From positions 62,001-126,000 of the IMG/VR virus record IMGVR_UViG_3300011116_000922: DNA of 64,000 bases; one strand, written 5' to 3'. The position numbers and the translations under genes were made by a program. Origin of the DNA: a virus. Below are positions 645 to 52,538 of the stretch, piece by piece (position 1 is the stretch's first letter; every line of letters starts with the position of its first letter). The notes beneath the pieces are model-generated. The model saw only the letters and a program-made list of their open reading frames with translations, had not been told where the DNA came from and ran no database searches.

Positions 645-1492
645 AATCAGTAGTAATACCAACTAGAAATGATAACTATGGTTATTTTTTGACAGAAAGA
701 ACCATTCAGTGCTTGAACAATATGGTGTCGAATTTCGATGAGGTGATAGTTGTTGATTGGAATTCGCCTGATGGTGTTCCTGCTATACGGCAAGCCATAA
801 ACTCCATTCAGAAAACCGGGAAAATTCGGTGTATTGTTGTTCCAAAAGAAGTAGTGGAAAAACATATTCCGCATGATACAAATCCGTGTTGTGATGTGAT
901 TGCACGGAATGTGGGAATACAGCGGGCAAGAAGCGACTGGATTCTGTCTTCAAATATTGATATATTGTGTTCGCCTTTTGACGAACGCTCTTTGTCTTCC
1001 GACACCATGTATACATCTGCGAAATATACAGTTCCCGAACATGTACATCTGCTTCACACTCTTCCTATGAGTAATGATGACAAGATGATGTTTTTGAAAA
1101 ATAACAAACAACATTTTCCGAGGATGGAACTGTGTGCAAATAGTATTCACCATAGGGATGATGTGTATTCCTTATGCACGGGATGTGGGGATTTTCAACT
1201 TGCACACCGTGATCTTTGGAATGCCATTCGTGGATATGAAGAAGCACTGCATAAGAGAGATTATGCTGACACCAATGTTCAGGTTAAGGCAGCAAACCAT
1301 CCATCTAAAAAAATCAGTCTTTTGGATGTTGATATTTTCCACATGAATCACGACACGAAGTGCCCATATTTAACAAAAGGCTCTTCTTTGGCAATGAACA
1401 AAAAGGAAGACGCTTTCGTCACCTATGCCACAACAGCCAACTCTGAAACATGGGGATTGGCTGACCACACCTTTGAGGAGATAGTGATCTGA
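641..1492 (+). CDS. GT-A family glycosyltransferase
   Basis: 283 aa. The N-terminal strand with IPTRND, then VVDWNSPDG and the block ARNVGIQRARSDWILSSNID, are typical of GT2-like (GT-A fold) glycosyltransferases; the NID takes the place of the metal-binding DxD. The C-terminal half has CTGCGDFQLAHRD, resembling the acceptor-side region of family 2 enzymes. The start overlaps the upstream fcl stop (ATGA), so it is translationally coupled to sugar-nucleotide synthesis. Donor and acceptor cannot be told. With the neighbouring transferases it probably builds a glycan on a virion protein, DNA or host surface; that role is inferred from context only. Confidence 0.75.
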   Translation: MKSVVIPTRNDNYGYFLTERTIQCLNNMVSNFDEVIVVDWNSPDGVPAIRQAINSIQKTGKIRCIVVPKEVVEKHIPHDTNPCCDVIARNVGIQRARSDWILSSNIDILCSPFDERSLSSDTMYTSAKYTVPEHVHLLHTLPMSNDDKMMFLKNNKQHFPRMELCANSIHHRDDVYSLCTGCGDFQLAHRDLWNAIRGYEEALHKRDYADTNVQVKAANHPSKKISLLDVDIFHMNHDTKCPYLTKGSSLAMNKKEDAFVTYATTANSETWGLADHTFEEIVI

Positions 1493-1493
1493 C

Positions 1494-2393
1494 ATGAACA
1501 AGTATATTGTTACAACCACAATTCATCCCCCGACAGAAGCACTTATTCGTTTTTCAAAAATGAATGATTGGAAACTGATTGTGGTGGGAGACATGAAGAC
1601 TCCACACGAATCATACAGGGATGTGAATTGTTCGTATCTGCACCCGGAGTATCAGAGCGAAAGATACAAGAAATTGAGTGATGTTTTAGGATGGAATACT
1701 ATCACTCGTAGGAATATTGGATTTGTCGAAGCGTACAATTGTGGAGCAGACATCATAGCAACTGTAGATGACGACAACATTCCATACGATTTTTGGGGAA
1801 CCAATGTTGTTGTTGGAAAAGAAGTTTTGCTTGATGTGTACGATGCATCATCGGTTGGTGTGTTTGATGCTTTGAGTGTAACAAATCATTCTAATCTATG
1901 GCACCGAGGATTCCCTACCCAAAGACTAGAAGTCAAGAACAATGTAAAATATCTTGGCAAGCATATGGTAAAGATTGATGTTCAGGCAGACCTATGGGAC
2001 GGTCATCCCGATGTTGACGGTGTTTGCAGACTGATTCACAAGCCAGTTGTGAAATTCAATGTCACCGAGCCGTACACATCAAATACGATAACCCCGTTTA
2101 ATACTCAAAACACTTTCTTGAGCAGAGAAGCAATCAAGGTCTTTATGGATCTACCTTTCATTGGAAGAATGTCGGATATATGGGGAGCCTATGTGTTGCA
2201 GAAGAGAATGAAATGCAATGTTGCATTTTCTCCGGCATCGGTGTATCAGGATAGAAACTTGCAAGACACCGTGAACAATATTGTAGATGAGTTGATTGGA
2301 TACCGACATAGCCACAGTTTTGTTGATGGCAAATACGAATTGCCTGATAATGTCAAGACTGCGTATGATACATACTGTGAGTGCTTTGAATAA
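1494..2393 (+). CDS. STELLO-like glycosyltransferase
   Basis: 299 aa. The opening (VTTTIHPPTEALIRF, then WKLIVVGDMKTP) and the metal-binding TVDDDN are hallmarks of the STELLO/DUF288 group of GT-A transferases, known from plant Golgi proteins and from bacterial and phage glycan clusters. It begins one base after the previous stop and has no membrane segment, so it is probably cytosolic. The C-terminus overlaps nothing; a clear AAGGAG for the next gene follows. The specific sugar is unknown. Confidence 0.72.
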   Translation: MNKYIVTTTIHPPTEALIRFSKMNDWKLIVVGDMKTPHESYRDVNCSYLHPEYQSERYKKLSDVLGWNTITRRNIGFVEAYNCGADIIATVDDDNIPYDFWGTNVVVGKEVLLDVYDASSVGVFDALSVTNHSNLWHRGFPTQRLEVKNNVKYLGKHMVKIDVQADLWDGHPDVDGVCRLIHKPVVKFNVTEPYTSNTITPFNTQNTFLSREAIKVFMDLPFIGRMSDIWGAYVLQKRMKCNVAFSPASVYQDRNLQDTVNNIVDELIGYRHSHSFVDGKYELPDNVKTAYDTYCECFE

Positions 2394-2403
2394 GGAGAAT
2401 ATT

Positions 2404-3381
2404 ATGAAGAAAGCATTGGTTCTTGGTGGTGGTGGATTCATCGGATCACATCTTGTCAACCGTCTTAAGCGCGAAGGATTTTGGGTACGAGCGGTTGATC
2501 TAAAGTATCCCGAGTACGCAAAAACACAAGCAGACGATTTTGTCCAAGGCGATTTGCGTTCGCAGAGTCTGTGTGATTATGTGTTCGATCAGCAATTTGA
2601 TGAAGTGTATCAGTTGGCTGCTGACATGGGTGGCGCGGGTTATATTTTCACTGGTGAGAACGATGCAAATGTGATGCACAACTCTGCACTCATCAATCTA
2701 AATGTTGTTGAGAAGTGCCATGAAACAAAAGCAGGAAAGGTGTTCTATTCCTCCTCTGCCTGCATGTATCCTGCTCACAACCAAGAAGATCCCGACAATC
2801 CAAAGTGTTCCGAGGATTCTGCGTATCCTGCTGCTCCCGATAGCGAATACGGTTGGGAAAAACTTTTCAGCGAAAGACTGTTTTTGGCGTATGCTAGAAA
2901 TCATGGTCTGAATGTCAAAGTTGCCCGATTCCACAATGTCTTTGGGATTGAAGGGTCATGGGACAACGGAAAGGAAAAGGCTCCTGCTGCTGTTTGTCGC
3001 AAGGTTGCAGAAGCAGAAGACGGAACCCATATCGAAATTTGGGGTGACGGAAAACAGACTCGTTCTTTCATGTATGTTGACGAGTGCCTTGAGGCAGTTC
3101 GTAGGTTCATGGATTCGGAGTTTTCTGGTCCTGTCAATATTGGAACCGAAGAAATGATCGCTATCAACGATCTTGCAGAGATGGTGATTCGTATCTCTGG
3201 AAAGAATCTAACCATCAAAAATATTCCCGGCCCAATTGGTGTGCGTGGCAGAAACTCTGATAACAAACTGTACAGAGAGAAGATTGGTTGGGAATCGAAG
3301 AAGACCCTTGAAGAAGGAATAACAACCACATTTGCTTGGATCAATGAGCAAGTAAAAGCCAAGAAGATGATGGCGGTTTAA
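2404..3381 (+). CDS. GDP-mannose 3,5-epimerase-like SDR enzyme
   Basis: 325 aa. Extended SDR with an N-terminal Rossmann motif GGGGFIGSHL, then AADMGGAGYI, SSACMYP, YGWEK (YxxxK), ARFHNVFG and EKAPAAVCRK. These follow the plant GDP-mannose 3,5-epimerase pattern closely, including WGDGKQTRSF and GVRGRNSDN. That enzyme makes GDP-L-galactose or GDP-L-gulose. The start at 2404 is chosen because AAGGAG lies just upstream and the Rossmann strand begins there; in-frame codons further upstream overlap the previous gene. Together with fcl and gmd it suggests the phage supplies more than one GDP-hexose. Confidence 0.82.
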   Translation: MKKALVLGGGGFIGSHLVNRLKREGFWVRAVDLKYPEYAKTQADDFVQGDLRSQSLCDYVFDQQFDEVYQLAADMGGAGYIFTGENDANVMHNSALINLNVVEKCHETKAGKVFYSSSACMYPAHNQEDPDNPKCSEDSAYPAAPDSEYGWEKLFSERLFLAYARNHGLNVKVARFHNVFGIEGSWDNGKEKAPAAVCRKVAEAEDGTHIEIWGDGKQTRSFMYVDECLEAVRRFMDSEFSGPVNIGTEEMIAINDLAEMVIRISGKNLTIKNIPGPIGVRGRNSDNKLYREKIGWESKKTLEEGITTTFAWINEQVKAKKMMAV

Positions 3382-3382
3382 C

Positions 3383-4399
3383 ATGAATACAAAGACATCT
3401 CTGACCGTTGGATTCTATTCCAACCAACTGTGTGTTCGTGGCACAGAAGTTGCCATGTATGATTATGCCCACTACAATGAAACTCTGTTGGGAAACAAGT
3501 CTGTAATTTTCTATAACGAGGACTCGCCCAACAACGATTCTAATGCTGTAGAAAAATTTCGTGCTAGGTTTCCGGTTGTTGGATTGCGGGGAGCCTTTTC
3601 TAGCGGTGCAAGAAGCGCAAACGGAAATACTGTAAACGCTCTACTGAATGATGCGATTTTATCAAATAATATTGATGCCATTTACATCATCAAAAACGGA
3701 GAAAAGAGTGACGGTATTTTACCCACTGCTTGCAAAACTCTTGTTCATGCAATAGGAACTCCCGATCCAAGTGAAAAGCACGGAGACAGATATGCTTATG
3801 GATCGTATTGGTTGAGCGAGGAGTTTTCAAAAAACACCATTCCTGCCGTTCCATATATGATAGACCTTCCCGAAGAAACCGGGAACTTGAGGAGCGAATT
3901 AGGGATACCGGAAGACGCTGTGGTGTTTGGAAGAAACGGCGGAAACGATACTTTTGATCTTCCTTGGGCAAAACAAGTTGTAGCAGAAGTTGTTAATCGG
4001 GTATCAGACTCTTATTTTATATTTCAAAACACCGACAAGTTCTACGATCATCCAAGGGTGATTCATCTTCCCAAAAATGCAGACATGAAATACAAGGTGA
4101 AGTTTATAAATTCGTGTGATGCAATGCTACATTGTCGTTACATTGGCGAAAGTTTTGGTTTGTCTTGCGGAGAATTCTCTGTTCGAAACAAACCAGTAAT
4201 CACATGGAACGGCTCTCCACAGAGAAATCACATATTTGTGTTGGGGGACAAGGGCATATACTATGACACCGCACAGGAGTTGTTTGAAATACTAATGACA
4301 TTCGACAAACAAGATCCCGCTGTGGATTGGAATGCATATGCCGATTACTCTCCCGAAAAGGTAATGGGTGTATTCAAATCTGTTTATTTAGAAGAGTGA
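3383..4399 (+). CDS. GT-B family glycosyltransferase (GT4-like)
   Basis: 338 aa. The N-terminus (VGFYSNQLCVRGTEVAMYDYA) looks like the acceptor domain of GT-B enzymes. The C-terminal domain carries ESFGLSCGEF, the E-x7-E type signature of retaining GT4 enzymes that binds the nucleotide sugar. VVFGRNGGNDTFD fits the linker strand at the start of that domain. The gene starts one base after the preceding epimerase stop. It is probably a further transferase of the same glycan pathway; donor and acceptor are unknown. Confidence 0.7.
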   Translation: MNTKTSLTVGFYSNQLCVRGTEVAMYDYAHYNETLLGNKSVIFYNEDSPNNDSNAVEKFRARFPVVGLRGAFSSGARSANGNTVNALLNDAILSNNIDAIYIIKNGEKSDGILPTACKTLVHAIGTPDPSEKHGDRYAYGSYWLSEEFSKNTIPAVPYMIDLPEETGNLRSELGIPEDAVVFGRNGGNDTFDLPWAKQVVAEVVNRVSDSYFIFQNTDKFYDHPRVIHLPKNADMKYKVKFINSCDAMLHCRYIGESFGLSCGEFSVRNKPVITWNGSPQRNHIFVLGDKGIYYDTAQELFEILMTFDKQDPAVDWNAYADYSPEKVMGVFKSVYLEE

Positions 4400-4428
4400 T
4401 TGACTTTTAATATCTACTGGAAAAAATA

Positions 4429-5054
4429 ATGGACAACAAACACAAATTATACGAGCAGATCCGGCGTTCTAATGTTAAGACCGTATTGGACATTGGTGCT
4501 AATGTTGGTCAGTTTGCGATGGAAATAAAAGCAAACTTTCCACACCTGTTTGTCGTTAGCATTGAACCAAATAGAGACTGTGAACCGTATTTGAAATCAT
4601 ACGGATTGAACTACATCATCTGTTGTCCATCTGATCGCAAAACTACTAAAAAATTCTATAGAACAAAAAATAATCGTGTTGGTACTGGGTTTTCTTTGTC
4701 AAAGAAAATACCTGTCATTATGATGGAGATAATCTAGTGGTCGAAGACATGCAAACCGACACTATGGATTCTATTTTAGATCAGAGTTGGCTTGGGAATC
4801 TGTCGTTTGATCTTATCAAATTAGACACTCAAGGAAGCGAACTTGACATCTTAAAAGGATGCCCCAAAACTATGTCCAATTGCAAAATGATTCTTGCAGA
4901 GACAGATGTTGGAAACTATAACCAAGGATGTCCTTCGCAGGCTGAAGTAATAGATTATCTATCGACAGTCGGATTCCGTGTTCTAGAAATAATAGAAGAC
5001 CAAGTATCAGACGGTAAAATTATTCAGCAAGACATATTGTTCATCAAGGACTAA
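4429..5054 (+). pseudogene. FkbM-type methyltransferase, split by a frameshift
   Basis: SAM-dependent O-methyltransferase of the FkbM family in two frames. The first part (4429-4737, 102 aa) holds the SAM-binding motif VLDIGANVGQ. The second (ORF 4737-5054) holds VEDMQTDTMDSIL and DLIKLDTQGSELDILKG, both typical of FkbM. Between about 4699 and 4736 the frame-0 reading KENTCHYDGDNLVVE joins the halves smoothly, so one base appears to be missing near the A-rich stretch at 4701-4709. Either the gene is broken, or the base loss is an assembly error, or a -1 slip occurs there. The A AAG AAA run is not a strong slippery site. The normal product would methylate a sugar. Confidence 0.72.
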
Positions 5055-5057
5055 CAA

Positions 5058-5999
5058 ATGAAAATGCTAGTGACAGGTGGGGCGGGGTTTATTGGATCGA
5101 ATCTTGTTGATCGGCTAATTGCAGAGGGTCACGAAGTAGTAGTGATCGACAACGAGTCATCAGATTCTAACGAACAATTCTATTGGAATCCCACAGCACA
5201 GAACTATAAGTACGACATCAACGATTACACGATGGTACGCAAACTGTACGAGGGTGTGGACACTGTGTTCCACCTTGCTGCGGAAGCCCGTATTCAGCCG
5301 TGTATCGAAGATCCCGTAAAGGCTGTGGAAGCCAATATGCTTGGTACCGCTAGTGTGTTGCAGTGTTCCCGTGTATGTGGTGTGAAGCGGGTAATCTACT
5401 CGTCCACATCGTCTGCCTACGGACTCAAGAACACTCCTCCCCTTGTGGAAACCATGCCCAACGATTGCCTGAATCCGTATTCGGTCAGCAAGGTAGGCGG
5501 CGAGGAGTTGTGCAAGATGTACTCCAAACTGTACGGGTTGGAGACAATCGTATTCCGCTACTTTAATGTGTACGGAGAGCGTCAGCCCCTGCGTGGTCAG
5601 TACGCGCCAGTGATTGGTATTTTCCTGCGTCAACGAGCCGCAGGAGAACCCATGACGATTGTGGGTGATGGCGAACAACGCCGCGACTTTACCCATGTGA
5701 GTGATGTGGTGGAAGCCAACATCAAGGCATCACAGTTTACTGCCCCTGAATACAATGTCATAGACAACGGTTCGTGTCAGACCTACAGAGGATGGGAATG
5801 GGGTCAGGTGTACAATATTGGCACGGGAACCAACCATTCCGTGAATCAAATTGCTGAACTTATGGGAGGAGAAACTGTAAATATTCCTCCCCGCGCAGGC
5901 GAATCGCGTATCACTCTTGCAAACGCAAAAAAGGCACAAGAACATTTTGCGTGGACTGCGAAGATTCGTCTTGAAGATTGGATTGCCGAGCATAAATAA
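5058..5999 (+). CDS. NAD-dependent UDP-sugar 4-epimerase-like protein
   Basis: 313 aa extended SDR. It has the Rossmann motif TGGAGFIGSNL at residues 6-16, a YSVSK-type catalytic YxxxK preceded by SSTSSAYG, and RYFNVYGERQ, as in GalE and WbpP-type UDP-glucose/UDP-GlcNAc 4-epimerases. The late region GDGEQRRDFTHVSDVV binds the nucleotide sugar. It starts three bases after the FkbM remnant. GalE versus UDP-GlcNAc epimerase specificity cannot be decided by eye. Confidence 0.8.
   Translation: MKMLVTGGAGFIGSNLVDRLIAEGHEVVVIDNESSDSNEQFYWNPTAQNYKYDINDYTMVRKLYEGVDTVFHLAAEARIQPCIEDPVKAVEANMLGTASVLQCSRVCGVKRVIYSSTSSAYGLKNTPPLVETMPNDCLNPYSVSKVGGEELCKMYSKLYGLETIVFRYFNVYGERQPLRGQYAPVIGIFLRQRAAGEPMTIVGDGEQRRDFTHVSDVVEANIKASQFTAPEYNVIDNGSCQTYRGWEWGQVYNIGTGTNHSVNQIAELMGGETVNIPPRAGESRITLANAKKAQEHFAWTAKIRLEDWIAEHK
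5991..5998 (+). promoter_or_regulatory. T4-type late promoter motif (CATAAATA)
   Basis: One base from the T4 late consensus TATAAATA. It ends 20 bases before the start codon of the GT2 gene at 6019 and has AAGGAG in between. Confidence 0.45.
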
Positions 6000-6018
6000 C
6001 GGTACAAGGAGATCGTGA

Positions 6019-7260
6019 ATGTCTACAGTATGCCTGTCAATGATCGTCAAAAACGAAATGCATATCATCCAAGAGTGCTTTGATTCTGTCTATAAGTACA
6101 TCGACTACTGGGTGATTGTTGATACTGGTTCCACCGATGGAACACAGGAATTCATCAAGAAGTACTTTGCCGAGAAGGGCATTCCCGGAGAACTGATTGA
6201 GCGTCCGTGGGTGGGTTTCGGTCACAACCGCAGCGAAGCCCTTGATCTCTGCACAGGCAAGGCAGACTACGCTTGGATGATTGATGCGGACGACAAGATT
6301 GTTGGCGACTTCAAGTTTCCAAACAACAAGAACCTGACGGTTGATGCGTATGCCCTGAAGTGCGGACGCGACCAGTGCATTTGGTGGCGCAACCAAATCT
6401 TCAAGACAGGAATTGGTTGGAAGTATGTTGGTATTCTCCATGAGTACGCACACTGCGAAAAGCAGCCTCTTGTTCAGGAAAAGATTGACGGCAACTACCA
6501 CCTAGAGGCTCGTACACTAGGAGCGCGTAATGTCAACATCACACCCGTTGAAAAGTACTCCAAGGACGCAGAACTTCTGCTTGAAGCCCTCAAGACTGAA
6601 CCGGGCAATACCCGTTACCAGTTTTATCTTGCTCAGTCTTACTTTGATTCTCAGCAGTGGGACAAGGCTACAGAAGCGTATTACAAGCGCGTGGAGATGG
6701 GCGGTTGGGAAGAGGAGTGCTACTACTCGCTGTTCCGAGTTGCCCTGATTGCTATGGCACAGGAAAAGGAGTGGCCCGTCATTCAGCAGAAACTGCTTGA
6801 TGCCTACGACTACCGTCCGTGCCGTGCTGAACCCCTCCATGCCATTGCGCGTACCCTACGCATGATGGGTCGCCCTCGCGCTGCGTATATGTTTGCCAAG
6901 GAAGCAGCCAACATTCCGTTCCCGCAGCAAGACATCCTGTTCATTGACACCAATGTGTACACTTGGATGGCACTGGACGAACTTGCGGCTACTGCCTTCT
7001 ATGTGCATGACTACAAGAACGGCTTTGCTGCTGCGGATTTCCTGCTCAAGCAGAACCGCCTTCCCCCAACGGAAATTCAGCGCGTTCAGCAGAACCACGC
7101 TGCGTACCGTGACAAACTGGAAGAAGTGCAGCGTATGCAGACCGGACAGCCGGGACAGTTCCCCATTCCCGCAATCCCCGCCGTTCCGCCTCCAGTAGTG
7201 CAACAAAAAATTGCCTACATACCTCCTAGAGCGAACCGCTTTAAGACGAGGAAAAAGTAA
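6019..7260 (+). CDS. GT2 glycosyltransferase with C-terminal TPR-like region
   Basis: 413 aa. Residues 1-100 are a GT2 domain: LSMIVKNE at the start, VIVDTGSTDGT, a metal-binding DADD (WMIDADDKI) and a WR acceptor-side motif. The middle (about 170-350) is rich in helical pairs with ALKTEP and YQFYLAQSYFDSQQWDKA, a tetratricopeptide-like pattern also seen in SunS-like and other phage transferases. The last 50 residues are proline-rich and end in a basic RFKTRKK tail. The gene is preceded by a late-type promoter motif and overlaps the next gene by one base, so it may act on virion proteins late in infection. That target is inferred. Confidence 0.78.
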   Translation: MSTVCLSMIVKNEMHIIQECFDSVYKYIDYWVIVDTGSTDGTQEFIKKYFAEKGIPGELIERPWVGFGHNRSEALDLCTGKADYAWMIDADDKIVGDFKFPNNKNLTVDAYALKCGRDQCIWWRNQIFKTGIGWKYVGILHEYAHCEKQPLVQEKIDGNYHLEARTLGARNVNITPVEKYSKDAELLLEALKTEPGNTRYQFYLAQSYFDSQQWDKATEAYYKRVEMGGWEEECYYSLFRVALIAMAQEKEWPVIQQKLLDAYDYRPCRAEPLHAIARTLRMMGRPRAAYMFAKEAANIPFPQQDILFIDTNVYTWMALDELAATAFYVHDYKNGFAAADFLLKQNRLPPTEIQRVQQNHAAYRDKLEEVQRMQTGQPGQFPIPAIPAVPPPVVQQKIAYIPPRANRFKTRKK

Positions 7261-37162: not shown

Positions 37163-38380
37163 TTACTGTTTCCACGCCTTGGACAGCGTGAAATTTGCCT
37201 TTGAGAATTCGATGCGATCAACCAATTTGACTGCATCGTTACTCATACGATCTATTGCAACGAATCCTTCGGGAACCGTTGCCACATACTTGTCGCCCTT
37301 CTGCACAAAAGTACCAAACTCCGTGGTCAAGGCAGACAGTTTTGCTAGTACATGCTTCTTCAGCATGGCTACACGATTATGTAGGGCAAACAACCGATTG
37401 ATTTGGTTGCGGTTGTTGCGGATGTAATCCAGTGTAGGCGTGGGAGTTTTAGCGGGAACTTTTGATTTGCGCGCTTTGCGCTTTGCGTCAATCTTTGCAG
37501 AGATGAACGCAATAAGTTCGTTGGTGTCTCCCAACTCCCGTCCTGCACGGATGATTCCGTTAAAGTAAGTCTTGATTTCTGCTACCAGTGCGGTGTTCTT
37601 GGCAACCGCATTCATGGCAGACTTTAGTGCAATTCCGTCTTTGATGATTCCATCAATTTGTGAATTGATGTGGGCAATATCCGTGGCACTAAACAAGCCA
37701 TTACCCTTGGAGAAACGGTAGGTGGCATTGTCGAACCACACCTTGCGGCTCTTTGCCAATCCTGAAAGGTCGGGATTGAACTGGACAACTTTCAGGTCAG
37801 CAATGCTCTTGCCACCGTATTCCGTGTGGAACACAATTCCAATATCCGCAGCAGTGATTCGCGCACCCAAATCGGACTTGGGATCAACAGCGTACTTGAT
37901 GGTGTTGGGTTGGAAAGTAATGTACCGCTTGCCGTCAATGGTTTCACGCTTGAGCGAATCCTTGTCGAACAGCAGATCGCCTTGCAGCACGGTGCTGATC
38001 CGCAAGGACTTGAAATACTTGAGAGCCAGTTTGAGTTTGGCATTCAAGCCTTCTGCCGGATGGTTGCGGTCAATGTCGGCTTCGGTGTAGTTCACCTTGG
38101 GTGTCACATTGAACACGCTCTTGGTGCCCACGAAGAACTTGCCGTTGTTTGGATCGGTTCCCACGATGATTGCGGGTGCGCCGTCCCACTTCACGGAAAT
38201 ATCATACGGCACGGTGTCGTTGCCGTGCAGCGACTGCACCACACCGCGCAGGGAATTCATGGACTTGGAAAAACCCACAAACCCGTGATTGAATATTTCG
38301 TCCTCCAAATGCTCCAAGTGGACATTTTTGCCACCTGTGCTTTGCAGGGATTCCGCCAAGAAGGGAATAAATGAGTTCAT
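37163..38380 (-). CDS. capsid-targeted ligase-like nucleotidyltransferase
   Basis: 405 aa. The start at 38380 gives MNSFIPFLAE followed by S, a match to the T4 capsid-targeting leader and cleavage site. The body has SVKWDGAPAIIVG, the KxDG motif I of ATP-dependent DNA/RNA ligases and capping enzymes, then VLQGDLLFD, ITFQPNTIKYAV and IGIVFHTEY, which can serve as later ligase-fold motifs. A basic linker (KRKARKSKVP) precedes the C-terminal helical part. A late motif lies 15 bases upstream. I infer a ligase-fold protein packed in the head and possibly ejected with the DNA; activity is untested. Confidence 0.6.
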   Translation of the reverse strand: MNSFIPFLAESLQSTGGKNVHLEHLEDEIFNHGFVGFSKSMNSLRGVVQSLHGNDTVPYDISVKWDGAPAIIVGTDPNNGKFFVGTKSVFNVTPKVNYTEADIDRNHPAEGLNAKLKLALKYFKSLRISTVLQGDLLFDKDSLKRETIDGKRYITFQPNTIKYAVDPKSDLGARITAADIGIVFHTEYGGKSIADLKVVQFNPDLSGLAKSRKVWFDNATYRFSKGNGLFSATDIAHINSQIDGIIKDGIALKSAMNAVAKNTALVAEIKTYFNGIIRAGRELGDTNELIAFISAKIDAKRKARKSKVPAKTPTPTLDYIRNNRNQINRLFALHNRVAMLKKHVLAKLSALTTEFGTFVQKGDKYVATVPEGFVAIDRMSNDAVKLVDRIEFSKANFTLSKAWKQ

Positions 38381-40675: not shown

Positions 40676-42610
40676 TTAGGCATCCCATATGTAATCGTTT
40701 CCGCGATCCAGTACAATCTTACGAGTCTTCTTGTCTAGCACCTGAAGTCCGGTTCCTGCGGGGTTGAGTACAACCACGCGACCGCTAACGGTTTCGTAGA
40801 ATTCAACACCCATCTTGCGAACCTTTTTCACCTTGAGGGTGTAGTCTTTTCCGTTCTTCGTGCCGTAGATTTCGAATGTCGTTCCAACAGGATGGCTGTC
40901 GATTTCCGACATGAGTTGGGTTGCCAGTTTTACCGCGGTGTTTGCATCCAAGCCGACCATCTTGGATTTCTTCTTGGACTCAGGCTTGGAAATCAAATTA
41001 CCACGGGCATCTGTTTTGCGAGGCTTCAGGGGCTTATTCGAACCCACATAACGGTTGGGATCGTCTTGATCCACTCCGTAATTAATTGTTCCCATTTGAG
41101 GATTGCGGTCGCGCTTGATCTTGATGGCTTCAAGCAGCGATTCTACCAAGCGATTGCGCGAATTTCCAAACATATAGAATCCCTCTGTTTTCGTTTTTTC
41201 GTTTTTTGCTTCAGGCTTCTTCTCGGGGATGGTTTCACCACCGCGAGTCTGACTCAATAGCCCGATATCCTTTTGGAACTTATTAGAGAAGTCGATGATC
41301 TCGTCAACAGGAACAGGCTTGCCGCCCTTGGTGATGGTGCGAGTCTTCATGGTGGTGTTTGCGCCGCCACCGTTGGCAATGTCCACCGCACACTGTGCTG
41401 CCCAACGGTGGTGACCGTCAATCACATAACCGTCACTCACATAGATGGGTTCAAGCAGACGAGCGGCTTGCTTGGCGTAAGTCTCGTCTTCTTGTGCAGC
41501 AAGCAGTGTTCCGTACATTCCCGCAACCTTCTCGCCCTTCAACTGACCCTGAATGGGCTTCAGTGATGTCACAGGAACTTCCTGTTCTTCAATGGTGTAG
41601 CCCGCTGCTTCAAGAGCCTCGCGGTACTGCTTTTCCATGTTGACTTCGCTCTTCAGATCATCAGGAGTGACCTGATCGGGAGAAGTGTAACCCTTTCCTG
41701 CCATGAGTGCCTTGAAAGCAGGAGTGTCCTTGCGGCTTGAATCCACTTGCGAAGAAAACTGCGGCATACGGTCGCGGGGAATGCCCTTGGACACGCCGCT
41801 CTTTGTCTTGGGATCAAAGCAAAACCCAACATCAGCAAAAGCCTGTGAACACAACTCAAAGTCATACGCTTTTTCTCCACGCATAGCCGAAAGCGCAGCG
41901 TGGTTCAGTTCGTCCACGAACATACGCTCTTTCTTTGGATCACCAAAGACCGATTCCTTTGTGTCGCGTGGTCCAGCAAACTTCTTGGCTTTGATAGCCG
42001 CTGCCACGATATTTGCTTTACGCATATCGCGCTTGGTCTTGGCTGCGGCTGTAGCCTTGGGGTCTTCTTTGAACTCCGGGTCAAACTCGGTTTGTGGATT
42101 TTCTGCGCCAACATCAGGATGCTCATCCTTGGCTTGTGGCTCTACCTTGGCTTGCGCTGCACCCGCTTGGCTACCTTGCGGTTGTGCTTGATACTGCGTA
42201 TTAGCGGGAACCGCTTGCGCTTTTTGGGTGGACTGTCCTGCTCCGGGTTGTCCTGCTGTTGCGGGTTTTCCTGCATTCGGTTGTGCGGCTCCCTGTGGTT
42301 GAGGATTCTTTTCGTTTCCGTCCTTGTCCAATTCCACTTCCTGCGATGTGTCCATTTTGCTGTGGTCTACACCGCTTGCAGGTCCTGTTCCTGCTGCCCA
42401 TGACTTGGCTTTCTTCTCGTCATCAAAGCCGTAGTCCTTTTCGCCGTCTTTGTTCATGGCACCAAAGCGACCACTGGCAGTTTTCCACACTTCACCGGGC
42501 TTGTGACGGCTAGGCTTGGCAGGAGTCTGTGCAGGAGCCGATGGCTTCGGGGCTGCTGTGGCTTGAACTTCAAAAATAATGCTGCGTAGGCTTTTGTATT
42601 CTTCGCTCAT
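40676..42610 (-). CDS. large modular virion protein with ParB/sulfiredoxin-like domain
   Basis: 644 aa. The N-terminus MSEEYKSLRSIIFE followed by V resembles a longer CTS. A Pro/Gln/Ala-rich low-complexity linker (about 100-165) follows. A helical domain (200-340) leads to a ParB/Srx-like domain with VPVTSLKPIQ and YVIDGHHRW (about 395-403), the site that binds nucleotide in ParB-like folds. A later RLVESLLEAI is another [IL]xE-A site, before the C-terminal beta domain. It overlaps the next upstream gene by ATGA. A packaged enzyme is possible; activity is unknown. Confidence 0.6.
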   Translation of the reverse strand: MSEEYKSLRSIIFEVQATAAPKPSAPAQTPAKPSRHKPGEVWKTASGRFGAMNKDGEKDYGFDDEKKAKSWAAGTGPASGVDHSKMDTSQEVELDKDGNEKNPQPQGAAQPNAGKPATAGQPGAGQSTQKAQAVPANTQYQAQPQGSQAGAAQAKVEPQAKDEHPDVGAENPQTEFDPEFKEDPKATAAAKTKRDMRKANIVAAAIKAKKFAGPRDTKESVFGDPKKERMFVDELNHAALSAMRGEKAYDFELCSQAFADVGFCFDPKTKSGVSKGIPRDRMPQFSSQVDSSRKDTPAFKALMAGKGYTSPDQVTPDDLKSEVNMEKQYREALEAAGYTIEEQEVPVTSLKPIQGQLKGEKVAGMYGTLLAAQEDETYAKQAARLLEPIYVSDGYVIDGHHRWAAQCAVDIANGGGANTTMKTRTITKGGKPVPVDEIIDFSNKFQKDIGLLSQTRGGETIPEKKPEAKNEKTKTEGFYMFGNSRNRLVESLLEAIKIKRDRNPQMGTINYGVDQDDPNRYVGSNKPLKPRKTDARGNLISKPESKKKSKMVGLDANTAVKLATQLMSEIDSHPVGTTFEIYGTKNGKDYTLKVKKVRKMGVEFYETVSGRVVVLNPAGTGLQVLDKKTRKIVLDRGNDYIWDA

Positions 42611-45830: not shown

Positions 45831-46310
45831 TCATTTCATCAGTTTAGCCGTGGTCACGGTGCGCTGATTTTCCACACTGGAAAAACGGTTTGTTACATTA
45901 GTTCCCACAATCTTGTAGCCGAACTCCTTGCCGAATCGCTTCATCATGGCACTGTAGACAGCATCGCGCTTGCCTTCGCTTGTCTTTGACACCATGTCCA
46001 GTTCCTTCGGCAGTTCACCCCGTGCTTCCATGTGGTCTTTCAGGAACAGGCGCACTGCCTCCACCACCGTAGCCAGTATGCGATACGGCTTGCCTGCGTG
46101 TGTGAGGTCGTGTGAGCCGTCAAGCGTAAAGTTGATTTCCCATCCACTCACCTTGATCTTGCTGATGTCAATGTTCAGGTACTGACCGTTTTCGGTCTGT
46201 GCCTGATAGGTGACTTCAATAGTGGTGGGACCGTAACCAATCCGCTTCATTTCGCGCACAGGCAACGGACGGTCAAATACTTCAGTAAGGTAGGAGCGGA
46301 AGTCTATCAT
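45831..46310 (-). CDS. capsid-targeted internal protein, paralogue of the next upstream gene
   Basis: 159 aa. The leader MIDFRSYLTE followed by V has the CTS form. After it comes FDRPLPVREMKR, closely like the 47005 protein, then a C-terminal domain ATVVEAVRLFLKDH...KRDAVYSAMMKRFGKEFGY shared with it. No catalytic motif is obvious. It overlaps its upstream neighbour by ATGA and is the last gene of the six-gene operon. Presumably cleaved by the prohead protease and packed in the head. Confidence 0.65.
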   Translation of the reverse strand: MIDFRSYLTEVFDRPLPVREMKRIGYGPTTIEVTYQAQTENGQYLNIDISKIKVSGWEINFTLDGSHDLTHAGKPYRILATVVEAVRLFLKDHMEARGELPKELDMVSKTSEGKRDAVYSAMMKRFGKEFGYKIVGTNVTNRFSSVENQRTVTTAKLMK

Positions 46311-47005
46311 TGCATATCCTTGAATGGATCGTGGGATTTGTCAAACCACACAATCGCGGGTGCTGCCATTTCTCCACGCCCAAACGCCAAGTCGTAAACC
46401 TTTCCACCTGCTGCGGTGGCGGCTTTACGAGCCAGTGCCTTGTAGATGCGACCACGCGCAGGATTTGCGTCTTTCTTTGTGCCAATCAAAACGCCTCGGG
46501 GTTTCACTTCATCAACGAATTTCTTTGTAGCGTCCACTACCGTGCCAAGGATTGCTGCTGCTTCTCCTGCACCAAGCCAGTTCAGGTCTTCGTCTGATCC
46601 TATATCAAACGAGTGCCAGTAGTATTGGCTGTAATCGTGGATTTTAGAACCAACAGGACGCGGACGGGGCGGCATACGGCGTAGTTCCGTGAGTTGGCGT
46701 TCAAAGCCCAATTCCCAAATGTTTTTAGTGTCCAACAAATTATAGAACAGCGAAAACTCTTCGTATCCTTCAACCCAACCGCTGCTGATTTCCGTGAAGT
46801 CCACAGAATAGGTGTACACCGTTGGCTCAATCCCGTTTACATAGTTGGCTTCCACCCAATCGTCCAGTTGCTTTCCGAATCTCGGAACAGGATACAAGCG
46901 ACCGCGCTTCTCCTGCACAATGAAAGTGTAGGTGTCGCGGGACATCCGTTCCAATTGGAACTTTTTGTCAAACAGTTCGGTCAGATATGAACGGAATGTG
47001 TTCAT
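46307..47005 (-). CDS. capsid-targeted internal protein, paralogue of the next downstream gene
   Basis: 232 aa. The leader is MNTFRSYLTE followed by L. Homology with the 46310 protein covers the leader, FDKKFQLERM and the C-terminal block LGTVVDATKKFVDEV...ARGRIYKALARKA. It has an extra central region (about 60-140) with many aromatic residues. It ends FKDMQ. ATGA overlaps on both sides. Function unknown. Confidence 0.65.
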   Translation of the reverse strand: MNTFRSYLTELFDKKFQLERMSRDTYTFIVQEKRGRLYPVPRFGKQLDDWVEANYVNGIEPTVYTYSVDFTEISSGWVEGYEEFSLFYNLLDTKNIWELGFERQLTELRRMPPRPRPVGSKIHDYSQYYWHSFDIGSDEDLNWLGAGEAAAILGTVVDATKKFVDEVKPRGVLIGTKKDANPARGRIYKALARKAATAAGGKVYDLAFGRGEMAAPAIVWFDKSHDPFKDMQ

Positions 47006-47742
47006 ACGGCTTTACGCTTCACCTTTCCGTGCAGTTGACGGGAGAAGGTTTCGGAGCGGTAGTCCACAGCCTTGTCGGAGTATGTGGTGTAGCCGCCCTT
47101 TACCCACGAATCAGCGTAGGTCATCTGATTTCCGCCTGTCATCTGCGACAACTTCAAACCCGTGACTTCAACGGTGTCGCCCAAGCGAATGGGCGGCAAG
47201 CCTTCCTTGCGATCCGCTGTGCCAATGTAGCCCATGAGCATCCAGCCTTCATCAGTCTGAATGCGAACACGCCACCGCCACACGCTCATCTTTGCGTCAT
47301 ACGCTTTCTGACCGGGAGTATCCACACGCGGACTATTACTCTTCCCTTCACGCTCTCCAATGCGGAAGCGCGTCATTCTGTATTTCTTTGTCTTCACGGG
47401 AACATCAAACACAGGAACCAACTGCACAATCTTGCCGCTGATGCTGAACGGCATCCGAAAGTACTCGGGCTTGGGCTTGGCTGTGTCGCCGTGTTCTGTG
47501 CCTTCGCGCACTGCCTTGCCGAATGCGGCACTGGCATTGAACGGTTTGGACAGGTCAAGCACTTGCACACGGAATGAATGCCATCCGTCCTTGGCAGCGA
47601 GTGCCTTTACGCGCTCCACATCCGCTTCGCTCTTGGCTTGGGTGTACAGAATCTTTTCGTGGATGCGATCACGCTTGCCGCGAGGCAGTCCCCACAGCAC
47701 CCATTCCTTGGCTTCAGTGAGATAATTGCTAAACCCTTTCAT
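47002..47742 (-). CDS. capsid-targeted internal protein
   Basis: 246 aa. The leader MKGFSNYLTE followed by A aligns position by position with the T4 internal-protein leader. The mature part begins AKEWVLWGLPRGKRDRIHEK and contains DGWHSFRVQVLDLSKP and a beta-rich centre, with a basic C-terminus. I recognise no enzyme family. ATGA overlaps on both sides place it in the operon. Confidence 0.65.
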   Translation of the reverse strand: MKGFSNYLTEAKEWVLWGLPRGKRDRIHEKILYTQAKSEADVERVKALAAKDGWHSFRVQVLDLSKPFNASAAFGKAVREGTEHGDTAKPKPEYFRMPFSISGKIVQLVPVFDVPVKTKKYRMTRFRIGEREGKSNSPRVDTPGQKAYDAKMSVWRWRVRIQTDEGWMLMGYIGTADRKEGLPPIRLGDTVEVTGLKLSQMTGGNQMTYADSWVKGGYTTYSDKAVDYRSETFSRQLHGKVKRKAV

Positions 47743-48308
47743 ATCGCGCCCTCCACATCCATGTCTACCACTGTGTAGCCGGGGAACATACGCGCAAGGT
47801 TGTTTGCCACGCGGTTCTTGCCCCGCTGAAGCGCACGATCACGCAGCAGATTATCGCCTGTAGACGCAGAGATGAGTGAAACGGTTTTGCGGAAACGGTC
47901 AACGCGACCTTGGTAATCAGGCATACCGTTCTTGTTGGCGGATCGTTCAGCCGCAACATTGTATTCAGGAATATCGTTGTGTATCACATTCGCGGTTTCG
48001 TGTGGAGGAATTTCCCAGACAATGATTTTTCCACTGTCCCACCACCACAGCAGGGGCAAGTACTGGCGCAGAGTCTTTGCATCGCTTGTGGGCGGCAGTC
48101 CCCACTTCTCAAGCCAACGGGCATTGGGATTGTCGTGACCAGTGGAATCATATGCTGCGTACACCTTGCCGTCATAGGTGGTTTCGTCACGCAACCGCTT
48201 CAGCGTTTTCGCTGCGGTGGTTTTGTAGCCCCGTGGCTTTCGTGCGCCTGCCACGGCTTTTGTTGATGCGATCACTGCTTCGTGAAGATGTGCGCGGAAT
48301 GACTTCAT
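47739..48308 (-). CDS. capsid-targeted internal protein
   Basis: 189 aa from ATG 48308. The leader is MKSFRAHLHE followed by A. An in-frame start 36 bases upstream would bury the leader and lies in the previous gene, so 48308 is preferred. The body has a basic helix (RKPRGYKTTAAKTLKRL) and KIIVWEIPPHETANV. No family is recognised. It follows the preceding stop by one base. Confidence 0.62.
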   Translation of the reverse strand: MKSFRAHLHEAVIASTKAVAGARKPRGYKTTAAKTLKRLRDETTYDGKVYAAYDSTGHDNPNARWLEKWGLPPTSDAKTLRQYLPLLWWWDSGKIIVWEIPPHETANVIHNDIPEYNVAAERSANKNGMPDYQGRVDRFRKTVSLISASTGDNLLRDRALQRGKNRVANNLARMFPGYTVVDMDVEGAI

Positions 48309-48309
48309 T

Positions 48310-49479
48310 TTAGATCCAAGTGTAAGACATTTGAACTGGTTCAATTCCCAAGAACTCCATGAATGCAGAGAATCCTGCGCTCAAGAGTCCTGCAAAGAAA
48401 TCAACGATTTTGCGGACAGCGGACACCAAGATGTCCCATCCGCGCCCAATTGCGGTTTTTGCTGCCGCGTACCAATCGCTTAAGCCTTCATTCAAGTGAT
48501 TGCGGATTTCAGTGTATCGGGCTTCGTCAAGTGGCTTTCCGCCCGAGAAGTCGATTCGCGCAGCAATGCCGCGTGAGCCACCGCCGCTTGCGCTGCTCTT
48601 GCGACCACGATCACGCAGCGAAAACTTGAAGTGCGGCAAAGTGTTGCGGATGAATTCATCTGCATTGGCAAACTTCACCGTGCCGTTGTCGAACCACTCA
48701 AGGAAATGCGAGGCAATAAAGTCGGGCTTGTTGAAGCGGCGTTCGCCTGTTGCGAATTCACGCAGCAGTGCAACACGGTTCTCGGGCTTGTTCATAAACT
48801 CGCTCATCTCAAGCGTGAGCCGTTCCTTGATGCCCAATACGCTCAGAAACTTGTTCATTTGCGCTATTTCGGCTTTGGTGGGCGTGACTGCTCCGCTCTT
48901 GAATCCGGTCACGCGAGACAGCAGTGCATCGAATCCGTCTTCGCCGTACATTTTCTCGTACCGCTTGCGCGTAGCCTTGTACACTGCTTCATTGCCTGTT
49001 TCAAGAATGATCTGCGAAATTGCCCGTGCAATGGGTGCGCCGCGACCACCATTAAACACTGCGTTAAGCACTGCGTATATTTCGTTGGTCTGTGCAGACG
49101 CGATTTGTGCGTTCACGCCGTACTTCACGGAGCAGCGGTACTTGTCACCCGTGGTGATGAACACCACATCGGTCTTGGGTTCGCCGCTCTTCACGCTCTT
49201 TCCTGTGCCGCCGCTTGTGTACGCAAGTGTGAGTGCTTCGCGTGGAGCCTTTCCTGCCATGCGGAAAGCCAATCGCGGCTTGCCGTCCATGTGTACCAAC
49301 ATACTGTTTACACAGCCACGCGCAACGGCTTCTGCGGCTTTGCTTTGGTACTTCAGCGCAGCACCGCGATCCGCACCTTCGGATGAAGCGTCATTGAACG
49401 CTTTCACCAAGTCACCTTCGAATTTTGTGGTGTTGATTTTAGCCGTGGCTTCGGAAAGATATGAAACGAATCGCTTCAC
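48310..49479 (-). CDS. capsid-targeted internal protein, possible restriction-endonuclease-like fold
   Basis: 389 aa from GTG 49479, chosen because GGAG lies about 10 bases upstream, it makes a 4-base GTGA overlap with the upstream stop, and it gives the leader MKRFVSYLSE followed by A. An ATG 15 bases upstream has no RBS. The part TDVVFITTGDKYRCSVKYG followed by an Asn/Glu-containing helix has the strand-turn-strand look of PD-(D/E)xK nucleases, with SxK in place of ExK. The C-terminus has an amphipathic, Ala/Phe-rich helix (SAVRKIVDFFAGLLSAGF). The nuclease idea is tentative. Confidence 0.58.
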   Translation of the reverse strand: MKRFVSYLSEATAKINTTKFEGDLVKAFNDASSEGADRGAALKYQSKAAEAVARGCVNSMLVHMDGKPRLAFRMAGKAPREALTLAYTSGGTGKSVKSGEPKTDVVFITTGDKYRCSVKYGVNAQIASAQTNEIYAVLNAVFNGGRGAPIARAISQIILETGNEAVYKATRKRYEKMYGEDGFDALLSRVTGFKSGAVTPTKAEIAQMNKFLSVLGIKERLTLEMSEFMNKPENRVALLREFATGERRFNKPDFIASHFLEWFDNGTVKFANADEFIRNTLPHFKFSLRDRGRKSSASGGGSRGIAARIDFSGGKPLDEARYTEIRNHLNEGLSDWYAAAKTAIGRGWDILVSAVRKIVDFFAGLLSAGFSAFMEFLGIEPVQMSYTWI

Positions 49480-50240
49480 GATATGGTTCTCCATTCTTTT
49501 GGATTGTACCGATTGAAATGCGATGATAATGGTTTCAGTCCAACGCGCTCCACCACGACCACCTCAAAGTTGCCACCGCTTTCGCTGATCTCGCGCAAGG
49601 CTGCACGAATGGACTCTGCGTTGGTGCCTTCCAGTGACGGTGAGTTCTGTGGAGTTCCCGAGTACACTTTGAGCCACCCGCGCTGATACGCAAGCATCTG
49701 CACACTGTGCGACAAGTCAATGTCTTCCTTCAGGATTGCCTTCTTGATTTCTTCTGCCGTCCACGGATGCTCCGCACCGTCATTTCCGTAGCGCGGCAAG
49801 TTGTGTGTATTGCGGCGATCCGCTTCTGCTTGCAGACCCTGTTCCAGTTCGGTATTTGAAATGCCGAACTTGGCAGGAGACTTCACGATTTGCGTGACAT
49901 GGTAACCGTCTTTGGCATGGAGGAAGGTGAACCACTGCTTGGTGGGATGCCACCACCCCGCTCGTTGGGTATATCCCGTGCCGCCCCACGGAAACGGATC
50001 GCGCTGTGGTGCGGATTTTTGTGCGCTCTTTTTCCGTTGTGAGTTTGCAAATGCCTTTGCTGCCACCCGTGCCATCATTGCGCCGTACTTCTTTTGCTGC
50101 CTGCGGTCAAACATGATGTCTGCACGGCTACGGGCACTGGCAACTTCCGGTGGCGTGTACGCATTGGGATTGTCTAAAATCTCAAGTCGCTCACCAATGG
50201 CAAGCCGTGCCTCTTTTAGAAATGCAAAAATGTCTTTCAT
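49476..50240 (-). CDS. capsid-targeted internal protein
   Basis: 254 aa. The leader is MKDIFAFLKE followed by A. Next comes a basic helical region (DRRQQKKYGAMMARVAAKA) and a Trp-rich stretch (WWHPTKQWFTFLHAKDGYHV). First gene of the six-gene operon, 25 bases downstream of a late motif. Function unknown. Confidence 0.65.
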   Translation of the reverse strand: MKDIFAFLKEARLAIGERLEILDNPNAYTPPEVASARSRADIMFDRRQQKKYGAMMARVAAKAFANSQRKKSAQKSAPQRDPFPWGGTGYTQRAGWWHPTKQWFTFLHAKDGYHVTQIVKSPAKFGISNTELEQGLQAEADRRNTHNLPRYGNDGAEHPWTAEEIKKAILKEDIDLSHSVQMLAYQRGWLKVYSGTPQNSPSLEGTNAESIRAALREISESGGNFEVVVVERVGLKPLSSHFNRYNPKEWRTIS

Positions 50241-50264: not shown

Positions 50265-50271
50265 TATTTAG
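50265..50271 (-). promoter_or_regulatory. late promoter motif for the internal-protein operon (CTAAATA)
   Basis: Minus-strand CTAAATA 25 bases before the start at 50240. No other promoter-like site is obvious in the 37-base gap. Confidence 0.55.
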
Positions 50272-50277
50272 CCCCAT

Positions 50278-51198
50278 TCAACTCCACGGGTCACCGGAGA
50301 ACTTGATGGTGGATGCCAGTTTTTCGGATTCAAACTTGGCACGCATTTTCAGGATCTTCTTGCCACCCGCGCTCACGCCAATGCTTTCATTGCCCACCTT
50401 CTCAAGAGTGATGGGCTTGGACATGATGGCACTCAATTTTTCGTTTTGCAGGGGATCGTCCACCTTGGCAGTAATCTTTCCGGGCTTGTCGCCCATGCCT
50501 GTCACCTTGACATACGGCGGATACAGGTCATTGGAAGCGTCCAACCAGTTGCTCAAGATGTAGTCCCGCAGTGCGGCTTGGCTCATGCTGTTCAGTTTTT
50601 GGTACATGGTGTCGCGCACCTTGTGCAGCACAACCGATCCCATTTCCTGTGTCTGTGCCTGAACCTTGGGGGACTTGCGGATGGCATCCTTGCGTGCTTT
50701 GGAGTTCTCGGGCAAGTGGAACTTGCGGACAGCGGTGTTTACTGCTTCGGTCAGTACCGTGCCCAAGTCAATCTTGAGTGCGGCTTCCACCGTGCCCACG
50801 CCCGGATTCTTGAAGCCAATGTCACCCGACCCCGATGTGGATTTGGCAGACAGCCCAAGGAATCCGTCTGTTGGGCCCGAAGTAAACTGGATCAGAATGT
50901 CCGTGGGGTTCTTGCGCGAATCCACTTCCCGTCCCACTGCCCGTGCCAGTACCCCCGGTCGCGCAGTCCACCACACCTTTTTCACCGTGCCTGAATACTT
51001 GTGCTTTTTTGCCCACTGGAGGAATTCCTCCACCATGCGTTCGGCGCGTTCCACCTGAATAGCCGTCCGCACCGCACCAATCACTTTGGACTTGCGGTTG
51101 AACTGGGCTTTGGCTTCGGGATCCCACCACTTCTCTCCCGCAAGCAAATATCCCACATAAATTTCGTTTACATGTGCAAGGTCTGTGTTTGCAAGCAT
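50278..51198 (-). CDS. hypothetical protein, possible PD-(D/E)xK-like fold
   Basis: 306 aa. The central region NPTDILIQF...GFLGLSAKSTSGSGDIGFKNPG resembles the acidic-strand plus SxK arrangement of restriction-like nucleases, similar to the 49479 protein though not closely related. It lacks a CTS-type leader. The C-terminal half is mixed alpha/beta. A late motif lies 17 bases upstream. Treat the fold as a hint only. Confidence 0.55.
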   Translation of the reverse strand: MLANTDLAHVNEIYVGYLLAGEKWWDPEAKAQFNRKSKVIGAVRTAIQVERAERMVEEFLQWAKKHKYSGTVKKVWWTARPGVLARAVGREVDSRKNPTDILIQFTSGPTDGFLGLSAKSTSGSGDIGFKNPGVGTVEAALKIDLGTVLTEAVNTAVRKFHLPENSKARKDAIRKSPKVQAQTQEMGSVVLHKVRDTMYQKLNSMSQAALRDYILSNWLDASNDLYPPYVKVTGMGDKPGKITAKVDDPLQNEKLSAIMSKPITLEKVGNESIGVSAGGKKILKMRAKFESEKLASTIKFSGDPWS

Positions 51199-51288: not shown

Positions 51289-52299
51289 TCAATACACGCC
51301 CCAACCGCGTAGTCGCTCTGCGTGGTAAGCGTCCCGCAACTTGGTTTCCGTGTTGCCCTTGGGTTTTCGCAGATTGCCTGCCGCTCCAACGGTCTTGCCC
51401 TTGTACCGTTTGGGGTCAATCTCCTTGCCGCCCTTGCCGTACAGTTTCTTGCTGCTCTTTTCACGCGCATTCTGATTGTCTAACTTTAGGTAATCACTGT
51501 CTATTTTTCGTATCCGCTTGGAGCCTTCGCCGTGCCCTGCTGCAAACGCCTTCTCCAAGGCACGGTCTTTCTTGATGTACGCCGCGTCCACCTTCTTGTT
51601 CATCTGTTTGGAACGCTCCGCGGTCTGTGCCATCTCATGCACCGTGCCTTCAGCCACTGGCGATTTGCCGTTTACAATTTGAGCAATTACATCGCCAATG
51701 TCAGTGCGGTTCTCGGGGGTACGAAAGGGAAATGGATCTGTGAATGGTTTCATGTGCGGTTCTCCTCTTGTCCAATTATATAGGCATTCACGGGATTCTC
51801 GGCTTGCGACCACCGCTCCGCTCATGCACTGGTCACACGCTTCCGCAAAGGTTTTGCCCTTGCCGCTTAACCCGTTCTTGGCGGCTTGCAGCAGGTCTTC
51901 ACCCCCCACGATGCGCTCGTCCAATACCCCTTCGTCCACCGTGCTTCCCGCGCCCTTGGCACGGAGCAGACCACGAACAGTCGCCAGTTCTTCCGATGCC
52001 TTGCGGTCACCCTTTAGCACTGCGGCTGCGTACTTTTTTTGCAGTTCACGCAACTGGGTAATGGACAACTTTTCCAATGCGGCACGGGAGTGGGATTCCT
52101 CCACCTTCTCCACCTTTTCGTACCGCTTGCCACTGGGCAGGGTAGACTTTTTTGTGGGAATGGGAGCAGAAGCCTTTTCTACTTTGGCGTAGCCCTTGTG
52201 TTTGGGCTGCTCACCACGGCTTGTGATCTCCGCAATGACTTCCCCAATGCTGCTGCGGGTTTCGGGATTACGGAAGGATGGATCTGTGAATGGTTTCAT
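51289..52299 (-). CDS. in-frame duplicated modular virion protein
   Basis: 336 aa. The N-terminal sequence MKPFTDPSFRNPETR recurs at an internal Met (start 51753) as MKPFTDPFPFRTPENR, and each copy has its own AGGAGA-type RBS upstream, so the locus is a tandem duplication whose first copy lost its stop. It may make a 336-aa protein and a 154-aa one. The C-terminal module HEMAQTAERSKQMNKKVDAAY is related to residues 335-410 of the 719-aa protein. Linkers contain VDEGVLDE. Likely virion-internal. A late motif lies 24 bases upstream. Confidence 0.6.
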   Translation of the reverse strand: MKPFTDPSFRNPETRSSIGEVIAEITSRGEQPKHKGYAKVEKASAPIPTKKSTLPSGKRYEKVEKVEESHSRAALEKLSITQLRELQKKYAAAVLKGDRKASEELATVRGLLRAKGAGSTVDEGVLDERIVGGEDLLQAAKNGLSGKGKTFAEACDQCMSGAVVASRESRECLYNWTRGEPHMKPFTDPFPFRTPENRTDIGDVIAQIVNGKSPVAEGTVHEMAQTAERSKQMNKKVDAAYIKKDRALEKAFAAGHGEGSKRIRKIDSDYLKLDNQNAREKSSKKLYGKGGKEIDPKRYKGKTVGAAGNLRKPKGNTETKLRDAYHAERLRGWGVY

Positions 52300-52322
52300 T
52301 GTTGGGTGTTCTCCTGTGGGAA

Positions 52323-52329
52323 TATTTAG
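52323..52329 (-). promoter_or_regulatory. T4-type late promoter motif (CTAAATA)
   Basis: Minus strand, 24 bases before the start at 52299 and overlapping the end of the small gene upstream. Confidence 0.5.
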
Positions 52330-52538
52330 CGTTCCGCGTTCCGCAGTGGGCGCATCCACTCCGCATAGCCTCGGGCTTCCAGTACTGCGTACAGCCTACA
52401 CGCAAGTTCCGCCCCTACTGGATACGGATCCCCCCACTCGTTCTGTAGAGCGTAGTACTCTTCGGGAATGCTGTGGGTGCGGCGTTCGTCCCCACCAATA
52501 CGAATATGACCCCCTGTACCGCTTTCGTCCGAGTCCAC
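52326..52538 (-). CDS. small hypothetical protein, start uncertain
   Basis: About 70 aa from GTG 52538. The C-terminal part (RRTHSIPEEYYALQNEWGDP, then LYAVLEARGYAEWM) looks like normal protein. The frame extends to an ATG at 52670, but that extra part is low-complexity (HTSTHTSSHLLHR) and not protein-like. No RBS supports either start. Function unknown. Confidence 0.4.
   Translation of the reverse strand: MDSDESGTGGHIRIGGDERRTHSIPEEYYALQNEWGDPYPVGAELACRLYAVLEARGYAEWMRPLRNAER

Follow-up and report, generated by a model that had tools for sequence, protein, structure and literature searches.

The closest described systems are the internal proteins (IPs) of phage T4, with which the locus described here shares leaders of about 10-19 residues that are hydrophobic at positions 4 and 7, a cut following [IL]xE, mature parts that are basic and unrelated to one another, gp21 and gp22 genes in the same genome, and a late-type expression signal. 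Genetic work on T4 IPIII assigns residues 4 and 7 of the leader to targeting and residues 8 and 10 to processing (PMC9026906). IPI inhibits a type IV restriction enzyme, and on strain ECOR17 the phage depends on IPIII (PMC3012670, PMC9391042); IPIII mutants also show slower head assembly (PMC9026906). In the T4 record the leaders are MKTYQEFIAE/A for IPII and IPIII, MKTFKEFTSTTTPVSTITE/A for IPI and MELITELFDEDT for Alt (a slash marks the cut, positioned in these leaders by the [IL]xE rule); the exact cut in Alt is taken to be MELITE/LFDE. T4 has three IP genes, with ipII and ipIII near e and ipI apart, whereas the present locus has six leader genes in an overlapping operon and a further one encoding a DUF6267 protein; its mature parts are larger (17-41 kDa), and no search tied the cassette proteins to the T4 IPs. 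The operon is likely to encode capsid-targeted, ejected internal proteins of a T4-superfamily (Kyanoviridae-like) phage, with targeting, cleavage and ejection all inferred from T4. T4-type internal proteins are already known; what is new is the one-operon, slot-swapping form found in this lineage.

The window is a 64,000-base stretch comprising bases 62001-126000 of a 147,410-base IMG/VR virus record; PHROGs and Pfam scans also covered the rest of the record. A preliminary description, made from sequence alone, had proposed six tightly packed minus-strand genes, each opening with a T4-like leader, behind a late motif at 50265. All six ORFs are real and the quoted leaders exact, including that of gene 2 despite its GTG initiation; the packing is also as claimed, four junctions being 4-base overlaps and one a 1-base gap (Table 1). 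The ATG of gene 3 sits within a longer TTG-started ORF. The count of six leader genes was too low, as the DUF6267 gene adds a seventh outside the operon, and its leader is kept in all close relatives. The late motif held with the sequence CTAAATA, which is also found 21-43 bases before the gp67-like, gp22, DUF6267 and other starts; 13 of its 22 genome copies are no more than 60 bases from an ORF start, where 0.84 would be expected. The sequence TATAAATA was considered as the late motif and rejected here, CTAAATA fitting instead.

Table 1. Leader genes and promoter-like motif of the locus (window coordinates; slash, predicted cut)
Feature	Position	Strand	Description	Basis
Gene 1	49476..50240	-	254 aa, leader MKDIFAFLKEARLAIGE, predicted mature start RLEILDNPNAYTPP, pI ~9.7	ORF
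Gene 2	48310..49479	-	389 aa, GTG start, leader MKRFVSYLSE/A, phrog_22045	
Gene 3	47739..48308	-	189 aa, leader MKSFRAHLHE/A	alignment, relatives
Gene 4	47002..47742	-	246 aa, leader MKGFSNYLTE/A	
Gene 5	46307..47005	-	232 aa, leader MNTFRSYLTE/LFDKK	
Gene 6	45831..46310	-	159 aa, leader MIDFRSYLTE/VFDRP	
DUF6267 gene (seventh leader gene, outside operon)	37163..38380	-	leader MNSFIPFLAE/S; PF19782 E 2e-98	
CTAAATA late-promoter-like motif	50265..50271	-	31 bases upstream of gene 1 start	

The six leaders have F or I at position 4, Y, F or H at position 7, L at position 8 and E at position 10; the claimed likeness to T4 leaders thus held at each of the four positions of known importance, and the DUF6267 leader likewise satisfies the critical positions 4 and 7. 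Each of the six ends in a gp21-type cleavage motif [IL]xE, gene 1 offering two candidates. A strict pattern derived from T4 (M-x-x-hydrophobic4-x-x-[FYHLIMW]7-[LIVM]8-x-E10) matches 8 of 188 ORFs genome-wide, namely the six cassette genes, the DUF6267 gene and an ORF of doubtful status. With shuffled N-termini 0.58 ORFs per genome match, and at this chance rate of about 0.001 per start six adjacent leaders cannot be ascribed to chance. Among 44 distinct leaders from relatives, F occupies position 4 in 43 and Y, H or F position 7 in all, with L, I or M at position 8 and E at position 10 throughout; E10 was imposed by the search pattern, while the preferences for F4 and Y/H/F7 were not. The residues following the cut site differ (A, L, R, K, G, V, M), which counts against the internal-protein reading; the T4 Alt cut ITE/LFDE, however, resembles LTE/LFDK of gene 5 and LTE/VFDR of gene 6, so that a Leu or Val following the cut is no objection. 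An ADP-ribosyltransferase domain, as in T4 Alt, was not found in the cassette.

The common 5' ends could instead reflect a recombination feature or a recent duplication of gene starts rather than a targeting signal. In favour of this, genes 5 and 6 remain similar past the leader and modules are swapped between genes. Against it, the leader codons have diverged synonymously while residues 4, 7, 8 and 10 were retained: over residues 4-10 only 8-17 of 21 nucleotides are identical, with the differences at synonymous sites, so the leaders are not one copied stretch of DNA. The leader is also present on DUF6267, cytidylyltransferase, kinase and SAM hydrolase proteins elsewhere and in other phages, and the recombination reading is considered very unlikely. 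Alternatively, the leader might send proteins to the tail, the baseplate or a host membrane. Membrane binding is known for amphipathic N-termini, but the leader matches T4 at the head-targeting positions and carries the gp21 cut motif, and with gp21 present little room is left for this alternative. The reading preferred here remains a head-targeting leader.

Two further ORFs begin in a comparable way. A 644-aa protein (window 40676-42610, minus strand) starts MSEEYKSLRSIIFE/VQATAA and could likewise be a leader protein, its leader being longer; its relatives (L107, L108, L109, L113, L114) retain YKSL[RH]xxI[FL]E/[VIL]Q. Beyond the window, a 284-aa ORF (genome 140775-141629, plus strand) starts MKKFSQYLDQKGLNE/WV with a CTAAATA motif upstream, and is a possible additional capsid-targeted protein.

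The head machinery with which such leaders would interact is encoded in the same genome. The preliminary description had named the absence of a gp21-type protease as a potential refutation; one is present (PF03420, E 8e-41). It belongs to a morphogenesis module of T4-superfamily type that lies outside the window and includes terminase, gp20 portal, gp67-like, gp21, gp22 scaffold (core type PF25623) and gp23 genes, identified by PHROGs and Pfam; the gp23 major capsid protein itself carries MLVE/APGAA. The nearest named homologues of the DUF6267 gene are from Kyanoviridae phages of Synechococcus, Methylophilales and Pelagibacter, and it is on this inference that the virus is called Kyanoviridae-like.

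Relatives were collected by DUF6267, gene 1, gene 3 and leader scans, the DUF6267 scan yielding 20 contigs at 81-87% identity as well as more distant ones. A search for the leader in related phages, also proposed in the preliminary description, finds that it recurs there with exchanged mature parts. At least 14 related virus contigs have the cassette at the same site between conserved neighbours, with 2-7 leader genes each; the slots contain a NUDIX hydrolase, HNH nuclease fusions, the PKTD...SxK family of gene 2 and several unknown families. The second slot holds a NUDIX hydrolase (PF00293) in L107 and L108 versus gene 2 in the window, the PF00293 match coming from the contig that also carries L105; the fourth slot differs between the window, L107, L108 and L110. 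Relatives of gene 6 have an extra C-terminal HNH_3 nuclease domain, which the window copy lacks. The C-terminal part of gene 4 also recurs as a fusion, following gene 3 in L102 and gene 6 in L029. The mature parts are thus both divergent and exchangeable among relatives, and cargo is exchanged slot by slot behind the leader. Since relatives swap cargo behind the leader at the same spot, the locus resembles a set of interchangeable proteins that reach the bacterium with the phage DNA. The two gene 4 module fusions (L102:732-1802 and L029:691-1917) have LSE or MSE at the joint, and may be split by gp21 into two mature proteins.

A more serious alternative is that the six proteins are prohead core or assembly proteins, like gp67 and gp68 or in the manner of the assembly role of IPIII, being targeted and cleaved but serving in head building instead of as ejected effectors. 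The slower head assembly of T4 IPIII mutants supports this, as does the promoter-like CTAAATA that the cassette has in common with the gp67-like and gp22 genes. However, close relatives differ sharply in content (2-7 genes with different mature parts), unlike core assembly genes, and enzymes (NUDIX, HNH) are found behind the leader; an assembly role is therefore thought unlikely, and the exchangeable internal-protein reading is retained.

None of the six proteins could be assigned a function by Pfam, PHROGs or PADLOC; the mature parts lack a clear family, with only weak or partial PHROG matches, and a DNA similarity search of the cassette against known phage records found none. The mature parts of five of the six have a pI above 9.4, compared with 15% of other long ORFs. 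The preliminary description had held that they are unrelated except for the last two, and genes 5 and 6 do share a domain; their similarity crosses the cut site (FRSYLTE[LV]FD[KR]), so part of their leader likeness is due to common descent.

Gene 1 is the one case in which the originally proposed cut, LKE/ARLAI, is probably wrong. The protein has LKE (residue 10) and IGE (residue 17), and in nearly all homologues of the family alignment [IL]xE directly precedes RLxIxDNPNAY, with sites such as ITE/RLAIEDNPNAY, ISE/RLEIQDNPNAY, LHE/RLGIYDNPNAF and LQE/ALAIYSNPNAY. As IGE alone aligns with this common boundary, IGE/RLEILDNPNAY is the likely cut, predicted from the alignment. The AF2 model of gene 1 (mean pLDDT 80.7) is confident only past the leader, residues 1-25 being mostly below 50; a PDB fold search with it gave no match, and the only viral match is a weak one to Agrobacterium phage Atu_ph07 (E 7e-4). 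Profiles of genes 1 and 2 gave nothing significant against PDB sequences.

Gene 2 falls in phrog_22045 (E 4e-10) and has the invariant residues E21, P101 K102 T103 D104 (PKTD), and S117 and K119 (SxK), a pattern resembling PD-(D/E)XK nucleases. The nuclease reading is unconfirmed because the AF2 model is poor (pLDDT 50, no PDB match), and a nuclease-like activity is only a speculative possibility inferred from the motif. In cyanophages most phrog_22045 members are short and lack a leader, but both a leader and an extra C-terminal helical tail, amphipathic in gene 2, are found in the members from the window, L143, L144 and the Methylophilales phage Melnitz. The Melnitz homologue (about 24% identity) has the leader MQGFKTFLSE/A and the same tail and adjoins a DUF6267 gene with LINFSKYITE/D; unlike the present locus, the Melnitz stretch examined has no six-gene cassette. 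A single-sequence scan for close gene 2 homologues found none, whereas the alignment-based scan did find homologues. Gene 3 is found at 14 IMG/VR loci, and in an alignment of 6 homologues F4, H7, L8, E10 and A11 are invariant.

Independent support comes from cyanophage S-CREM2, in whose virions a SAM hydrolase, an APH-like kinase, a cytidylyltransferase and the small protein ORF13 were detected by mass spectrometry (PMC10665884). These proteins begin MKDFDSFLEE, MKRFDAFLTE, MKNFSSFLTE and MKDLHSFLTE, the same leader type as in the cassette; unlike the cassette, their genes do not form one operon, as ORF13 and ORF14 are adjacent and the others apart. A leader is not mentioned in the sections of that paper examined here. 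Of the six S-CREM2 ORFs matching the strict pattern, four were detected in virions (ORF6, ORF13, ORF14 and ORF154) and two were not, compared with roughly one in five overall among 201 coding sequences checked (P ~0.018). This enrichment test was chosen once the leader was known and is modest, yet it derives from experiment; only one peptide supports the detection of ORF13, and the S-CREM2 authors consider it possible that the particles were contaminated (PMC10665884). ORF12 of S-CREM2 (L140:7704-10313), a virion-detected Cas9-like protein, has the leader-like LRFASFMAE/A at residues 17-25; its annotated start may lie too far upstream.

By the mechanism proposed, each cassette protein would be synthesised late, carrying at its N-terminus a leader of about 10-17 residues, of which residues 4 and 7 would bind the gp22-based prohead core; cleavage by gp21 behind [IL]xE would then free the mature protein, which would stay in the head beside the DNA. 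Injected along with the genome, the mature, mostly basic proteins would be active in the cell immediately, with host defence or metabolism as the probable target. Binding, cutting and entry are inferred from T4. The leaders themselves, their recurrence on unrelated mature parts and the gp21, gp22 and gp23 genes are shown. Packaging in the head is very likely, but remains an inference, as the virus exists only as a metagenomic contig without proteomics; cleavage by gp21 is well supported, again by analogy with T4. The preliminary description had spoken of head-packed, probably ejected effectors: packaging is supported by inference, while ejection rests on the T4 analogy only, with no ejection data, and the balance tips slightly towards ejected effectors. 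A counter-defence role is plausible but no more than a possibility; individual activities of the mature parts are speculative, none having been assigned in this genome.

A bolder reading, for which belief and doubt are evenly matched, is that a T4-superfamily lineage has a dedicated hypervariable injection cassette at a fixed locus, and that the same tag explains the hitherto unexplained non-structural enzymes of cyanophage virions (kinase, SAM hydrolase, cytidylyltransferase and Cas9-like nuclease). Any protein, including nucleases and NUDIX enzymes, might then be turned into head cargo by gaining a tag of 10-17 residues, and since the tag would account for the virion enzymes, cargo would be predictable genome-wide from sequence. 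If the leader does mark cargo beyond coliphages, sequence alone would suffice to list the first-response proteins that a very abundant phage group injects, and a testable account would be available of the non-structural enzymes already detected in cyanophage virions. The cassette locus offers several unstudied candidate families for counter-defence or host takeover.

Other genes of the window are recorded here as separate observations. The conserved upstream neighbour of the cassette (50278-51198, minus strand; 84-86% in relatives) has no strict leader but contains NPTDI...LSAKST, possibly another nuclease-like fold. Beside it, a protein at 51289-52359 (minus strand) has two copies of the motif KPFTDP-F-R-PE-R--IG-VIA-I; its relatives begin NPFSRDEYPxLTxAIxGVVN, a second type of conserved N-terminus adjoining the cassette. 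At 641-7260 (plus strand) there is a run of sugar epimerase-like and glycosyltransferase-like genes, with N-termini resembling those of NAD-epimerases.
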